From NCBI GenBank assembly GCA_035540375.1, contig DATLGO010000110.1, forward strand, positions 1 through 59,748: a stretch of 59,748 bases of DNA, in the 5' to 3' direction. This DNA is from Candidatus Thermoplasmatota archaeon. Lineage in GTDB: Archaea > Thermoplasmatota > SW-10-69-26 > JACQPN01 > JAJPHT01. The translations under genes and the position numbers were made by a program. Shown piece by piece: positions 1 through 49,890 of this stretch (position 1 is its first letter; each line of letters begins with the position of its first letter). The notes below the pieces were generated by a model. The model saw only the letters and a list, made by a program, of their open reading frames with translations. It had not been told where the DNA came from and did not search any database.

Positions 1-262
1 GGACGACCCCCGCGACCCCGATCGCGAGCAGGACCGGGACGATGACGAGGGTGAGGCGCCCCGTCCGGCAGGGTCGCGAGGATGGCCTCGCGTCTCTGGA
101 GGAAGAGGAACGCGAGGCCAATGCCGGCCGCGGACCCGGCCGCGAACGTCGTGAGGGCGCTGCGGGCGACGGCCTGCGTCGCCGCGCGCGCGTTGCATGC
201 GCCATCGCCGGGCTCGCGCCAACGCCGCGGCCGCGAAGAGACGGTCGCCGACTGGGTCCGCC
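1..262 (-). pseudogene. Truncated, frameshifted copy of the membrane gene at 4220-4996
   Basis: Read on the minus strand, this segment aligns closely with about 4320-4580, the 3' half of the intact multi-pass membrane protein gene. The shared protein stretch includes ARAATQAVARSALTTFAAGS, followed by an FLFL-type membrane segment. Relative to the intact copy there is one extra base just after the LPD codons (around 65-75), which shifts the hydrophobic VIVPVLLAIGVAGVV segment into another frame. The N-terminal half is absent: homology fades above about 260. The other end runs off the window, so the true 3' end is unseen. It lies directly downstream of a decayed lipoprotein copy, which suggests a segmental duplication that is now degrading. 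Confidence 0.7.
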
Positions 263-308
263 GGTATCCATGTCATGACGACCGTGCTTGAGGGTCGCTC
301 GCGCTGGA

Positions 309-805
309 TCACCCGCCTGGGACGCGGACCTCCACGCTACGCGACGCGAGGTCCACGTCGCGGCAGCTTTGGGTGCAGGCGTGTTCGATGAGGCGGAACT
401 CGAACGCGTAGGTGCCTGCAGAGGGCACCTCGACCGTGAGGTTCCAGGACGGCCAGGCTCCGTCGATGTCCACCACGTCTGTGGTGTGAATCTCAAGCCA
501 CACGTGCACGCGCTGAGCGGCGGGCTCGAGCTTGACGAAGCGAACCCAGTCCACGGTGCCTGGTTCCCGATCGATGAAGTCCCCGGTGGTGGGACCCTCG
601 ACTCGGAACGCGACCGACGTGTTTGCGACGCGGACGACGCTCACATTGAGGCCTTCGCGGTGGCCTTCGACGGCGCGGTACTCCGCCGCGTAGGGGAGGT
701 CCTCACCGGGGGGCGGGGGAAATCGCCACACGCATCCGGCCAAGAGCGCCGCGACGACAACCGAGGCGCCGATGGCCGCGAGGGCTGGGATGAAGGCATG
801 TCCAT
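309..805 (-). pseudogene. Second copy of small lipoprotein gene, N-terminal frame broken
   Basis: From the lipobox-like AALLAGC onward this matches the intact lipoprotein at 1117-1614 along its whole length. Shared stretches include WRFP, PPGEDLP, VEG.REGLNVSVVRV, EPGTV, RVHVWLEI, AWPSWNLTVEVPSAG and a CTQSC pair near the C-terminus. No ATG, GTG or TTG lies in frame upstream of the lipobox. The ATG codons that correspond to the paralogue's start (around 795-805) are in a different frame, so the signal peptide is detached by a frameshift. Homology continues some 30 bases past the stop codon, as expected for DNA-level tandem duplication. It may be a pseudogene or a sequencing error; the neighbouring decay favours a pseudogene. 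Confidence 0.65.
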
Positions 806-859
806 GCGCACGCCCTGCTCCGGCATCACACGACCCACGGTCGGCAGGTTGCGCGGGAA

Positions 860-985
860 CTACCGCAACCCCCTCGCAGTCGGGTTGGTAGTCAACTCGC
901 GGGTCACAGGCACCTCCAAGATCGCTTCCGTCTCGCTGCTCCCGCAGCCCACTGCGCAGTAAGCCTTCGCGATGCGGATCCAGAC
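860..985 (-). pseudogene. 3' fragment of a third lipoprotein copy
   Basis: A short open stretch encodes VWIRIAKAYCAVGC, then SSETEAILEVPVT, and stops soon after. It resembles the C-terminal third of the neighbouring lipoproteins (HVWLEI..., EHACTQSC, ...VEVRVPG), including the paired cysteines and the terminal beta-strand. Nothing of the signal peptide or central domain remains. It lies between the two longer copies, as if an ancestral array of at least three genes is being lost. The similarity is short and divergent, so this is a suggestion rather than a certain homology. Confidence 0.4.
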
Positions 986-1116
986 CCGCTCGGGCTGCCG
1001 AGGGGGGTGGGCCGTGGCGGTCCAGGTCGAGATCAACGGTTCCGGCAACATCACATCCGACGCCACCGGCATCCGTCCCCTCGTGTTGGCCGTGCTTGAC
1101 GGTGGAGCCCGTTGGA

Positions 1117-1614
1117 TCACCCGCCCGGGACGCGGACCTCCACGGTCCGGGAGGCGAGGTCCACGTCACGGCAGCTTTGGGTGCAGGCGTGTTCGATGAG
1201 GCGGAAATCGAACGCGTAGGACCCTGCAGAGGGCACCTCGACCGTGAGGTTCCAGGACGGCCAGGCGTGCTCGCCGACCACATCGGTGGTGAAGATTTCA
1301 AGCCAGACATGCACGCGATCGAAGGCGCGATCGAGCCTGACATACCGAACCCACTCCACGGTGCCTGGCTCCTGGTTGAAGCTGGACCAGGTGGAGGGCC
1401 CCTCGACGAGGAAGGCAACAGACGAGTTCGTGACGCGCACGACGCTGACGTTGAGGCCTTCGCGGCGGCCCTCGACACCGCGGTAGACGGCCTCGAAGGG
1501 GAGATCCTCGCCGGGAGGCTCGGGGAACCGCCACGTGCACCCGGAAACGAGCAACACCGCGACGACTAGCAGCGTGGCCGGGATTGGCCCTTGGTTTCGG
1601 GTGATAGAATGCAA
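1117..1614 (-). CDS. Small secreted lipoprotein, intact member of a tandem family
   Basis: A 165-residue protein with a hydrophobic signal ending in a lipobox (VAVLLVSGC, Cys near residue 26). It should therefore be exported and lipid-anchored on the outer face of the membrane. The mature part is a single all-beta-looking domain with the motifs WRFPEPPGEDLP, REGLNVSVVRV, RVHVWLEI and AWPSWNLTVEV, plus a CTQSC pair that could form a disulfide. I recognise no enzymatic motif. It starts 6 nt after the metalloprotease stop on the same strand, so the two may be co-transcribed. Two degraded paralogues follow it (309-805 and 860-985). Confidence 0.7.
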   Translation of the reverse strand: MHSITRNQGPIPATLLVVAVLLVSGCTWRFPEPPGEDLPFEAVYRGVEGRREGLNVSVVRVTNSSVAFLVEGPSTWSSFNQEPGTVEWVRYVRLDRAFDRVHVWLEIFTTDVVGEHAWPSWNLTVEVPSAGSYAFDFRLIEHACTQSCRDVDLASRTVEVRVPGG

Positions 1615-1620
1615 GTCAGT

Positions 1621-4090
1621 TCACTTGGTCTCCCTGGCATGGCCAGATTGAATCTCGGCATAGGCGTCGTGGTGACGCGCTCGGAGGCGCTCGGTCTCCC
1701 CATATCCGAGGAGCCGCAGCCACGCGCCGTAGGAGGCGGGATCGTCCAGCGTCGCCTCGTCCCCGTGAAGGTGATGCCATGGATCACGGTCTCCCAAGAA
1801 GGGCCCGTTGGCTGCCCAATGCTGAGCGTTGGTTTCTCGCAAACCGGCGCCGATGTCGTTGCTGGGGCCCAAGTTGTAGGACCAGCGCCGCGGGCCGTAA
1901 TCATTCTGCTGGCTCTCCACACGATACCACATGATGTAGTCTTGCTGGTTGTGGTGGTACACATCTGACCTTCCATTATCATCGAGCCCGCGGTCTTGCG
2001 AGGGCTCTATCGTCCCAATGAGGTTGTGGCCGAGTTCGTGGATGAAAGATCGTCGTTGCATGGCGTCCACTTCCCACGGGAAGTACACGTTCATCATGCA
2101 GCCGTGGAAGAGGACGAACATGAAGCCCGGAGCGCTGCCCATGCCTACCGTGCGATCTTCCCACGGGAGAACACCGCACGAGGACTGCATCGAGTCGGCG
2201 ATGAGCGCGTAGTGGAAAACTCCCCGCTTGACCATGGGCATGTTCGTATTGTAATAGCTCTTCCACTGCGACTCAGTGTTGAAGGGCTTCTGATAGGGCA
2301 CCTTGTACCCAACGAAAATGTGGAGCCGGAAGCCCTTGCCTTGGAAGAGATTCTTTGCGATCGTTGCCTGCTCGTCGGTCAGCGCGATCAGGCACCGCCC
2401 GCTTTCGAAGCACTTGTCCATCACGTCCTGCCAAACGTAAATGTCCCGGACGGTCGGCGATGGATACTCGCATGGGCTGCCGCCGTCGCGGCAGAAGATG
2501 GCGTTGCGGTCGTGCATCGGGTACCACTGCGACTCGAGGTAGTCGTTGAGCCCGTCGAAATCGTGGTCGGGGTTGCCGTCGCTCGTGCCCTGGGCCGCTT
2601 CTCGGCATAGAACGAGCCCGTCCTGGTCGACGTCGCGCGTGTCGGCCGTGTGAATGGACTCGGAGGAGGTCGCGGAACCGCCGCGCCCGTCGTTCACGGT
2701 GAGGCGGATGGTGAAGGTGCCGCCGGGGCACGCGTAGGTCTTGGTCTTCGTGGGCCCGCCCGTGGCCGTGGTCCCGTCGCCCCAGACCCAACTGTACGCG
2801 ATTGGGTCGCCGTCGGGATCCCCCGAGCACCCCGCTTCCACACGAACGAGCAAGATTGAATCGAAGTAGGTCTGGAAGCATGCCGTCGGCGCGCGGTTCG
2901 CAGGCGGAGGCGAGCTTCCTGAGTGGCTCACGGAGCAGCTGACGTCGGCACCGCCGGGGCGGTTCGTCGTGCCTTGGACGAGGACGCTGGAGGCAAAGGC
3001 GACGTTGGCGTTCAGCTGCGTCGTGGTGATCGAGCCGGCCGTGAAACCTTCGGTCCCTCCCGTGTTGAAGGGCGGCGTGTCGGTCGGGTTCGGCAGGAGA
3101 TAGTACGTCGTGGACCACGCGTTGGACTGCCAGTGGATCCACGCCCCACCGTCGACGCGAAGGCGGTACCACTGACCATACGACGTGGTCCCCGTATAGG
3201 CAAACTGCGTGAGCGTTCCCGAGCCGGACGCGCTCCAGATGGTCGTCCACGCGCCGTCGGTGTCCGCCGGCGTATACGTGGCAGACGTGGCAAGGTGCAC
3301 GGTGCCCGATACGGGGGCCGGCGACGGCCCGGATGACGTCACGGCCGTGTAGCTCGTGGTCGTCGAGGGGTTCCGGTTCGTCGTCCCTTCGACCCGCACG
3401 CTCGAGGTGTATGCGAGGTTCGCGTCCGTCGGCGTCGTGGTGATGGAACCGGCAGTGAAACCGTCGGTGCTGGGCGTATTGTACGGGGCGGTGTTCATCG
3501 GGTTGGGCTGGAGATAGTACGTCGTGGACCCCGCGTTGGACTGCCAATGGATCCACGCCCCGCCGTCGATCTGGATCCGGTACCATTGGCCGTACGACGT
3601 GGTGCCGGTGTAGCTGAAGCGGGTGAGGGTGCCGGAGCCCGTCGTGCTCCACATGAGCGACCAGCCGGGGTCCGAATCGGGAGGCGCAACGGTCTCCGCC
3701 CTATTCAACGTGGCACTGCCCGAGTCCGTGCCCATAGGAGAAACTGAGACCTCCTCACCCTCCTCGGAATCCTCGCCCGATCCCCGCCTCACCGCGCTCA
3801 GGGTGGCGTCGAGCGAGCCGAGGGAGTCGTTGGTCGCGTGCACGAGTCCGGTGTCATGAGCCGAACCCGGTGCGCGGTCGTCCTGCGAATCGCTCACGTC
3901 CGCGGAATGGCTGTCATTGTGTGTGTGTGTGTGTGTGTGTTCGCGTATCCGGCCTGCCTGCGTACTCCGTCGCTGGCTCTTGGGCCGTGCCGTCCTCGGC
4001 CGATTCGGCGAGGACGAACCCCGGTAGCCCGGGGGCAATCAGAGCGGCCACCACGATCCACGATCTGATCCTTGTCCAACTGCCTCCCAT
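1621..4090 (-). CDS. Secreted zinc metalloprotease with duplicated domains and PKD domain, interrupted by a dinucleotide tract
   Basis: The signal peptide begins at the ATG at 4090: MGGSWTRIRSW, then IVVAALIAPGLPGFVLA, with cleavage expected after it. About 50 codons in, the reading frame enters a TG-dinucleotide tract (Thr-His repeats). As sequenced it stops at 3914, giving a 58-residue peptide. The rest, about 770 residues, is open in the next frame from the tract to 1621. It contains two ~100-residue repeats (about 2960-3675) sharing GTTSYGQWYR and GGAWIHWQSN, a PKD domain (DGDPIAYSWVWGDG) and a calcium-like Asp-rich stretch. The protease domain follows, with HELGHNLIG at 2015-2040 and a possible Met-turn (DYIMWYR). 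Gain of one TG unit or loss of two fuses signal and enzyme. Phase variation or an assembly slip could explain the break. Confidence 0.75.
3918..3940. repeat. TG dinucleotide microsatellite, 11.5 units
   Basis: An uninterrupted 23-base TG/AC tract inside the 5' part of the metalloprotease gene. No other such tract is apparent in this GC-rich window. It lies exactly where the signal-peptide frame and the mature-protein frame part. Tract length modulo 3 therefore decides whether an exported protease is made. Confidence 0.95.
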
Positions 4091-26811: not shown

Positions 26812-28560
26812 CTGCAGTCCCGCGTTTCGCGCCTCGCCGCCGCCCTCGCCGCGCTTCTCGTCGCCGCCGCCGTCGTCCACGCGGACCCGGCGGACGTGCG
26901 TCGCGAGACGAACGAGAACCGCCACGCGACGAACGACGCCGCGGGTCAGCGCACATGCCTCGTCGAAGCGATGAACGACGCCCCTTCCCCCGCTTGTCCG
27001 TTCGAGACTTTCGCGGGCGCCTTCGGCCCGCACGAGGGATACCTCGTGCTCGACGTCTTCAACGGCTACTACGGCCCGGCGCGCGCGCCGGACCCCGCGG
27101 CCCTCGAACGCGGCGACGCCGCGGCCTTCGTGTTCGGCGCGCAGCCCGGGTCGCACATGAACCTCCACCGCGCGTCGGGCGGCCTCTTCGCCGAAGCGCT
27201 CCTCCCCGGCCCCGCGTGGTGGCGCGCGTGGTACGGACCGTGGGAGGATCGCGACGGCGACGACATGATCGACTTCCGGCCGCGTTTCCAGGGTAGCGCA
27301 GTCGTTGGCATGGAGCCCGACAACGAGTGGATCCCCCTTCAAGGCTCCACCGAGACGATGTACGCGTGGGTCGAGCCCGGCGCGCACCAACCCGCCTACG
27401 CGACGCACGCGCCCGGCCCCGACCAGCCCGACTTCGACTTCAAGCCGTCCGCGAACTCGCTCTGGTCGAGCACGAGCGGTCCGACCACGACGTTCTACGA
27501 CGGGTCCGTCCTCACGACGTACACGATGGTCACGGTGACGAACCCGACGCTCGCGCCGAGCTGCGACGAGCGGGGTTGCCGACCCTACACGCCATCGACC
27601 CGCTCGCGCGCGGACATCGACGTCTACGCCTCCCTCGCGCCGGGACCCGTCTCCGCGCTCTACGAGGCGTTCGCGACCGGCACGGTGCACACGCTCCCCG
27701 CGCCCGGCTTCGCGCTCTGCCCGCGCGGATGCGCGGGACCGCCCGTGCCCGTCGACGGCGCGGCCCGGCCGTACGCCGGGCTCGTCGAAGGCGCGGTCTA
27801 CGCGCCCTACGCCCAGGAGACCTCGATCGATCCCGGCGACGCGCGGCAGGCGTCGCACGCCTCCGGGGACGCGGCGCGTTTCCGGGAAGGCTTCCGCGCA
27901 TGGATCGACCTTGTGCCCACCGTCGGCGTCGGCGACCGGCAGTTCCTCATGCCCGGCCGCGCGGACGACGGGCGCCCCACCATGATGCCCGGCAAGCTTT
28001 CCTGGAGCGTCATCGTGGGCGTGTGGTTCGACGCGAACGAGGACGGGTTCATCGGCGCCGTCGAGCGCGCCGATCCCTACAAGTCCGGCACGAATCCGTG
28101 GCCCGACGACTACGGGAACGCGCTCGGCGAATTCCTCCCGCACACCGTCGTGAACCCGCTCGGCCCCATCTCCGCCGATCCGAAGGAGATCTTCTGGGTC
28201 ACGCTCACGCCCGACGACACGTGGGGCCCCGCGGGCGTGTTCATCGGCACGGGCGCGGGCAACCCGATGCCCGTCACGACGTCCACGAACCCGCCCGGCG
28301 CCGAGGCGCGACCCCCATCGGAGTGGCACGTCACGGGAACCGAGAAGGCCCGCTTCCCGCTGCGCCTCTCAACGACGGCGCCGGGCGTCTACCTCTCGAC
28401 GCTCCACGTCTGGATGCCGCAGGGTAGCCCCGGCTTCACGCTGTGCACGCCCACGCCCGCCGACACGGGCGGCGCGCTCATCCTTGAGATGCAGCAGGAC
28501 GGCGTCGACGTCGACGAGCGCGTGTGGGACTGCGATCACCTGCCGCGTTGGACGCGGTGA
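26812..28560 (+). CDS. Secreted protein of unknown function (CTG start)
   Basis: 582 residues. The signal peptide SRVSRLAAALAALLVAAAVVHA lies upstream of the first ATG/GTG in this frame. Between the preceding in-frame stop (26779) and that signal the only possible initiator is CTG at 26812, and GGGAGG sits 7 nt before it. The mature protein is rich in Gly, Pro and Tyr (VFNGYYGPARAPD, DRDGDDMIDFRPRF, WFDANEDGFIGAVERADP), with scattered cysteines and EF-hand-like acidic loops that may bind calcium. It has no family I recognise and no membrane anchor. Confidence 0.7.
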   Translation: MQSRVSRLAAALAALLVAAAVVHADPADVRRETNENRHATNDAAGQRTCLVEAMNDAPSPACPFETFAGAFGPHEGYLVLDVFNGYYGPARAPDPAALERGDAAAFVFGAQPGSHMNLHRASGGLFAEALLPGPAWWRAWYGPWEDRDGDDMIDFRPRFQGSAVVGMEPDNEWIPLQGSTETMYAWVEPGAHQPAYATHAPGPDQPDFDFKPSANSLWSSTSGPTTTFYDGSVLTTYTMVTVTNPTLAPSCDERGCRPYTPSTRSRADIDVYASLAPGPVSALYEAFATGTVHTLPAPGFALCPRGCAGPPVPVDGAARPYAGLVEGAVYAPYAQETSIDPGDARQASHASGDAARFREGFRAWIDLVPTVGVGDRQFLMPGRADDGRPTMMPGKLSWSVIVGVWFDANEDGFIGAVERADPYKSGTNPWPDDYGNALGEFLPHTVVNPLGPISADPKEIFWVTLTPDDTWGPAGVFIGTGAGNPMPVTTSTNPPGAEARPPSEWHVTGTEKARFPLRLSTTAPGVYLSTLHVWMPQGSPGFTLCTPTPADTGGALILEMQQDGVDVDERVWDCDHLPRWTR

Positions 28561-40169: not shown

Positions 40170-40183
40170 CTCCTCCCGTGAGG

Positions 40184-40372
40184 CAAGGGGGCTCCGCCCC
40201 CCTGCACCCCCCGACGCGGGGCCCTCGAGCGGACGAGCGCAAGGGGCTTGCTACCCTCCAGCGGACGGGGTCAGCCGGCAAGGGGGCTCCGCCCCCTGCA
40301 CCCGCCGACGCGGGGCCCTCGAGCGGACGAGCGCAAGAGGCTAGCTACCCTCCAGCGGACGGGGTCAGCCGG
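40184..40372. repeat. Two tandem direct repeats of about 94 bp
   Basis: Unit 1 spans 40184-40278 and unit 2 spans 40279-40372. They are nearly identical, with a few substitutions (for example AAGGGGCTTGC against AAGAGGCTAGC). Each begins with a GGGGGCTCCGCCCCC palindrome followed by TGCACC, a module also seen (inverted) in the 49.8-kb repeats. No coding potential is evident. With R2 this fills most of the 587-nt gap before the DUF1611 gene. Confidence 0.85.
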
Positions 40373-49582: not shown

Positions 49583-49726
49583 GCGTTCAAAATGCCAGAC
49601 CCGGTCTTGAACCTGACCCCGCGCAGCCCGGTCGCCCGACCGATATCCCGACCCTCGTCGGCGCGAGCGAGACAAGCGCGGATGCGCGACACGTGTCATC
49701 GTAGACCCGCCGCTCGGAGGCTCTGG

Positions 49727-49890
49727 GTCGAACCTCTCGTTCGAGAGACAAGCGTCCGGGAGGTGCAGGGGGGTAAGGCCCCCCGCGGGCTCGTTCGAGA
49801 GACAAGCGTCGAGGGGTGCAGGGGGATGCCCCGCGGGTCGAACCTCTCGTTCGAGAGACAAGCGTCGGGGGGTGCAGGGGGGCAGAGCCC
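49727..49890. repeat. Three tandem ~55-bp repeats with a CTCTCGTTCGAGAG palindrome
   Basis: TCGTTCGAGAGACAAGCGTC occurs at about 49737, 49791 and 49847. The first and third copies are preceded by CGAACCTC, completing the perfect palindrome. Spacers are themselves G-rich palindromes following GGTGCAGGGGG. The spacers are repeated too, so this is not a CRISPR array. Confidence 0.85.

Follow-up and report, generated by a model that had tools for sequence, protein, structure and literature searches.

Is the interrupted reading frame of a putative secreted protease in this archaeal genome the product of a sequencing or assembly error, a dead gene, or a gene that is turned on and off by changes in the length of a dinucleotide repeat? 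The question arises on the minus strand of the DNA stretch that we analysed (59,748 nucleotides, hereafter the window), where a signal peptide and a long open frame lie on the two sides of a repeat tract. The elements of the locus, with the evidence for each, are as follows.

4007..4090, minus strand: start codon and signal peptide MGGSWTRIRSWIVVAALIAPGLPGFVLA, in frame A (by eye, codon score).
3941..4006, minus strand: acidic linker ESAEDGTAQEPATEYAGRPDTR, 3' of the signal peptide, in frame A (codon log-odds up to the tract).
3918..3940, minus strand: (AC)11.5 tract, the proposed hypermutable switch, which reads (TH)n (sequence, pattern searches, shuffles).
3914..3916, minus strand: TGA that terminates frame A at the current tract length, giving an OFF product of 58 aa (frame arithmetic).
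1621..3917, minus strand: frame B, encoding the mature protein, open from the tract to its stop codon (ORF list, codon score, stop counts).

The tract is 23 nt long and 100% pure. It had been described as TG, which is correct for the forward strand, as is the count of 11.5 units; the coding strand, being the minus strand, reads AC. The signal peptide MGGSWTRIRSWIVVAALIAPGLPGFVLA, which is followed by ESAEDG..., has a positive n-region and a hydrophobic core, with VLA preceding the E. Signal peptides, here and at the other loci discussed below, were called by visual inspection or with a simple heuristic. As the preliminary description had stated, the tract parts this signal peptide (ATG 4090) from a long open frame next to it; we counted 764 open codons past the tract. 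Since frame B has no stops there, where the other two frames have 16 and 8, the protease body, out of frame as it is, has not decayed. We scored the frames with a codon log-odds model trained on the window itself. Upstream of the tract (approximately 4034-3941) the signal frame scored -1.2, versus -19.9 and -21.5 for the other frames, and it was the top-scoring frame from approximately 4060 to the tract. Downstream (3915-3700) the mature frame scored +1.4, versus -54 and -87. The coding signal thus switches frame at the tract. When the tract length was edited by script, addition of one unit gave a protein of 823 aa and removal of two units one of 821 aa; changes of -3, -1, 0, +2 and +3 units each yielded only 56-66 aa. 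These results bear out the earlier statements that the signal frame ends at 3914 as sequenced and that one unit more, or two fewer, joins the frames.

The length of the tract far exceeds what is expected by chance. When the window was shuffled 100 times with its dinucleotides preserved, not even (AC)6 turned up, and under a Markov model the number of 11-unit tracts to be expected in a genome is approximately 1e-9. The tract at 3918-3940 is the sole TG/AC tract of at least nine units in the 3.13-Mb genome, and any (TG)9 was found in 4 of 390 Thermoplasmatota genomes.

We took a census of repeats in the same genome. AC- and AG-type dinucleotide tracts of at least seven units number three, against a Markov expectation of approximately 0.09 per genome, and all three are at the starts of genes for secreted proteins. 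The search was for alternating weak/strong 14-mers, which catches all such tracts, and was complemented by a (TG)6 search; AT and CG dinucleotides, and units of other than 2 nt, were censused in a 455-kb sample only. Besides one (CG)6, no further mononucleotide (at least 9 units), dinucleotide (at least 6), tetranucleotide or pentanucleotide repeat was present in this sample, which also contained two hexanucleotide arrays. The two tracts other than that of the protease locus are given below.

C50:72402-72415 (L062:5403-5416): (CA)7, beginning 8 nt past ATG L062:5395 and before the signal-peptide core.
C102:31252-31269 (L065:4253-4270): (TC)9, ending 3 nt 5' of the ATG that starts the gene for a small secreted protein, MHRIAGLGIAAAVLGLALVGTVEAEA.

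The first of them belongs to a gene for a secreted protein of 552-554 aa. ATG L062:5395 is out of frame at seven units and in frame at six or nine. Judging from the sequence, it is likely to be the native start, because the tandem paralogues on both sides of the gene start 4-7 residues ahead of their hydrophobic cores. At seven units the frame is joined to another ATG farther 5' (L062:5367); a start there, from which the gene may be ON, would give the protein an additional acidic N-terminal stretch. The second tract has an A/T-rich stretch directly in front of it and, being 5' of the start codon, would act on transcription or initiation, either through promoter spacing or through the frame of an upstream ATG.

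The C50 gene belongs to an orphan family of secreted proteins. By tblastn, the family has 80 matches in this genome, one in the window (27139-27717, plus strand) and others at approximately 75 other places, often in arrays (C30, C39 and C70). The family had no Pfam match, and no match in the six other genomes of the class.

In the 455-kb sample, 7.1% of the sequence lies within -40..+170 of a signal-peptide start called by a lax rule, which gives P of approximately 3.5e-4 for three tracts out of three. This value is conditional and post hoc: the start-zone test was framed after the first locus had been seen, and the predictor was deliberately lax. We also looked for mismatch repair. No clear MutS was found in the genome by Pfam-based analysis, NucS being outside the test; the only MutS_V-like protein is a 661-aa HhH/ATPase protein which, as a whole, falls below the Pfam cut-off. 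The lack of a clear MutS would fit with unstable repeats, with the reservation that NucS was not covered.

A length error is possible: assembly or PCR stutter may have dropped a unit from a tract that really has 12.5 or 9.5 units, in which case the frames are joined and the gene is constitutively ON. Amplification introduces errors into dinucleotide tracts, as do some assemblies, and the genome is in 110 contigs, so may be a metagenome assembly. However, a tract of 23 nt fits within a single short read, and an error in its length leaves unexplained why a genome otherwise free of such tracts has them only where genes for secreted proteins begin. The assembly error, which the preliminary description had named as a possible refutation, is thus weakened by its inability to explain the similar placement of the other tracts, and we consider it unlikely; even if it were true, the tract would still likely be a mutable site.

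Dinucleotide tracts were also found in genomes of related Thermoplasmatota, as listed here.

G002:C22, L116:4138-4159: (GA)11, in frame (ON), occupying codons 4-11 of the gene for a secreted LamG-PKD-HEFGH protease of 982 aa.
G087:C24, L179:1501-1531: approximately 15 GA units, in frame, following codon 3 of the gene for a family-2 glycosyltransferase.
G206:C3, L185:1501-1522: (GA)11, out of frame, with an ATG on one side and a secreted ORF on the other.
G317:C73, L184:1501-1536: (GA)18 inside an Mrr-ResIII restriction helicase, splitting the gene into two frames.
G171:C44, L178:1501-1535: (TC)17, approximately 95 nt 5' of a secreted C25 peptidase gene.

The class has two more true dinucleotide tracts. 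One is that of G002, which belongs to the same order and a different family; the other, in G005, lies close to the end of a contig and is not located at a signal-peptide gene. The architecture of the G002 protease is like that of the window protein, with the alignment mainly over PKD. A partial second copy of the C-terminus of the G002 protease (67% identity) is located directly 3' of it. The glycosyltransferase of G087 has an orthologue (JALOTN010000007.1, 86% identity) that starts directly with MKFSTAIRQ, without a tract; on this comparison, the N-terminus with the tract seems to be the derived form. The split Mrr/ResIII gene of G317 is a candidate phase-variable restriction system. In G011, a tract lies 17 nt ahead of an ORF, and (TC)9 is present in 9 of the 390 Thermoplasmatota genomes, that of the window and G002 among them.

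Several tracts were set aside. The TG tracts of G090 and G293 are intergenic and were not counted as support, and the tracts of G250 and G378, which are away from the starts of secreted-protein genes, lend none. The TG tract of G228 was not counted because its contig looks eukaryotic; this contig (L051, G228:C24), with (TG)9, encodes a eukaryotic-looking protein, a possible contamination of G228.

The protein encoded in frame B consists of the following parts.

2926..3663 (edges approximate), minus strand: two diverged copies of an orphan domain of approximately 130 aa (..SGTLT.F.YTGTTSYGQWYR..DGGAWIHWQSNA..), recognized from the sequence.
2662..2889, minus strand: PKD domain (Pfam PF18911, E=1.7e-12; PF00801, E=5.8e-9).
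1621..2580, minus strand: zinc-peptidase-like domain, with HELGH at 2026-2040 (distant relatives, alignment).

The orphan domain had no match among the other Thermoplasmatota genomes searched. The PKD domain is above the Pfam cut-off, its nearest solved relatives being collagenase PKD domains (ColH, PDB), and a D-rich stretch lies between it and the peptidase-like domain. The latter, taken alone, matched no Pfam family. It has distant relatives in 14 other Thermoplasmatota genomes; some of these relatives match reprolysin or matrixin models weakly. In an alignment of the window protein with 12 relatives (A1, n=13), every sequence keeps the H, E, G and H of HExGH, as well as several residues beside them. 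Set against the metzincin motif HExxHxxGxxH/D, the relatives read HELGHTLGLF and then D, E, H or S, and the window protein reads HELGHNLIGTIE, with one residue more. A PDB profile search gave metzincin matches at best E 0.007. The AlphaFold model had a pLDDT of 46, and its top Foldseek match, ADAM-8 (E 0.23), was not significant. Because the predicted structure is poor and there is no significant fold match, we argue for a peptidase from the motif and the alignment alone; we therefore call the domain zinc-peptidase-like, without assigning it to the metzincins. The PKD, D-rich and HExGH domains are of the extracellular type. A PKD domain beside a zinc peptidase is also seen in clostridial collagenase-type secreted metalloproteases (ColH), though the likeness to the window protein is confined to PKD. 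We found no close homologue of the protease in GTDB contigs, no match to the protease domain in the same-family genome G001, and no orthologue with an in-frame tract or a tract of another length in the Thermoplasmatota genomes searched.

A recent null allele, i.e. a young pseudogene made by one slip, without recurrent switching, has two points in its favour: the sequenced frame is broken, and we found no close relative that carries the gene. However, the protease body is intact, as judged from its 764 stop-free codons and the active-site residues, which are kept; a long pure tract remains reversible; and the parallel loci were seen in both ON and OFF frame states. We regard a null allele as quite improbable. 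Programmed recoding, in which slippage of ribosomes (+1 or -2) or of RNA polymerase on the AC tract would yield some full-length protein from the sequence as it stands, is very unlikely: the required shift is attainable by re-pairing on the AC repeat, but the other tracts differ in unit, frame and position, one being 5' of the start codon and some being in frame. A separate start of the protease frame near the tract, with an unrelated upstream ORF, was another refutation foreseen by the preliminary description and has an in-frame TTG at 4038 in its favour, but it is scarcely credible, as this start gives an Arg-rich N-terminus from a stretch scoring -19.9 versus -1.2 and deprives a protein of the extracellular type of its signal peptide. 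These three explanations and the length error are all less able to account for the recurrence of tracts at the starts of secreted-protein genes.

We think it likely, instead, that the protease locus is a phase-variable (contingency) locus that works by slipped-strand mispairing and was sampled in its OFF state, the switching and the length variation being inferred. Mispairing during replication would add or remove AC units. At 12.5 or 9.5 units a full-length exported protein of 821-823 aa would be made, at other lengths an exported stub of 56-66 aa, and the majority of the sequenced population would have been in the OFF state. The locus meets five criteria for contingency loci: a tract beyond chance, a non-triplet unit that toggles the frame, an intact body, a secreted product and several loci per genome. 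Two more, variation in tract length between cells or strains and reversible ON/OFF expression, are inferred for it, as is that tract lengths change often enough to matter. The original suggestion of a phase-variable switch thus gains support from the anatomy of the locus, from the position of all three tracts of the genome and from the tract in the G002 protease, with the switching itself still inferred. One or two more of the genes for secreted proteins in this genome, as well as surface or defence genes in related archaea, are probably under the control of the same device, made up of different dinucleotides. On balance, we lean towards the view that Thermoplasmatota have a true phasome, made of slippage-driven dinucleotide contingency loci with separate origins in different lineages. 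Under its control would be secreted proteases, further secreted proteins, a glycosyltransferase and a restriction helicase.

Translational phase variation based on simple sequence repeats (SSR), at contingency loci, is known from Haemophilus, Neisseria, Campylobacter and Helicobacter (PMC11868660). The design is the same as here: non-triplet units at the 5' ends of surface or secreted, glycosyltransferase and restriction genes, gain or loss of which toggles the frame. The present case differs in the archaeal host, in the use of dinucleotides in a G+C-rich genome, in its product, a secreted PKD zinc peptidase, and in that length variation is inferred. In bacteria, repeat-driven phase variation is usually attributed to host immunity and phage pressure. 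According to a 2025 review, the distribution of phase-variable loci in archaea is yet to be worked out (PMC11868660). The preliminary description knew of no established archaeal example among secreted proteases, and we found no SSR-based phase variation in archaea in the open-licence literature; an earlier report elsewhere is not excluded. The mechanism is that of a classical bacterial contingency locus, and, within that literature, an archaeal SSR case would be what is new. Archaeal phase variation is also seen in the haloarchaeal virus phiCh1, but there it relies on recombinase-driven inversion in the virus and not, as proposed here, on slippage of a repeat tract in the chromosome. The phiCh1 variation concerns surface adhesion (Klein et al. 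2012, cited in PMC8371274). A survey that includes 18 archaeal genomes makes a statistical claim for short A/T runs near prokaryotic gene starts (PMC2831843); it deals with runs of 5-8 A or T and not with dinucleotides, and is not known to show an individual archaeal switch. Long dinucleotide repeats are reported to be avoided across prokaryote phyla (PMC4060949), and, given this avoidance, the keeping of long tracts at the starts of secreted-protein genes suggests selection for mutability. With named archaeal loci and predicted ON and OFF lengths, archaeal phase variation becomes directly testable in existing metagenome reads.

The gene that follows the protease gene, 6 nt after its stop codon, may be transcribed together with it.

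1117..1614, minus strand: lipoprotein-like gene (MHSITRNQGPIPATLLVVAVLLVSGCTW..), possibly co-transcribed (ORF list; lipobox VSGC by eye).

Tandem lipoprotein-like paralogues occupy window positions 1-1614 (minus strand), directly 3' of the protease gene. Elsewhere in the window there are two tandem repeats, one at 40182-40372 (two copies of 94 nt, 95% alike) and one at 49725-49881 (2.8 copies of 56 nt), which share similar G+C-rich blocks.
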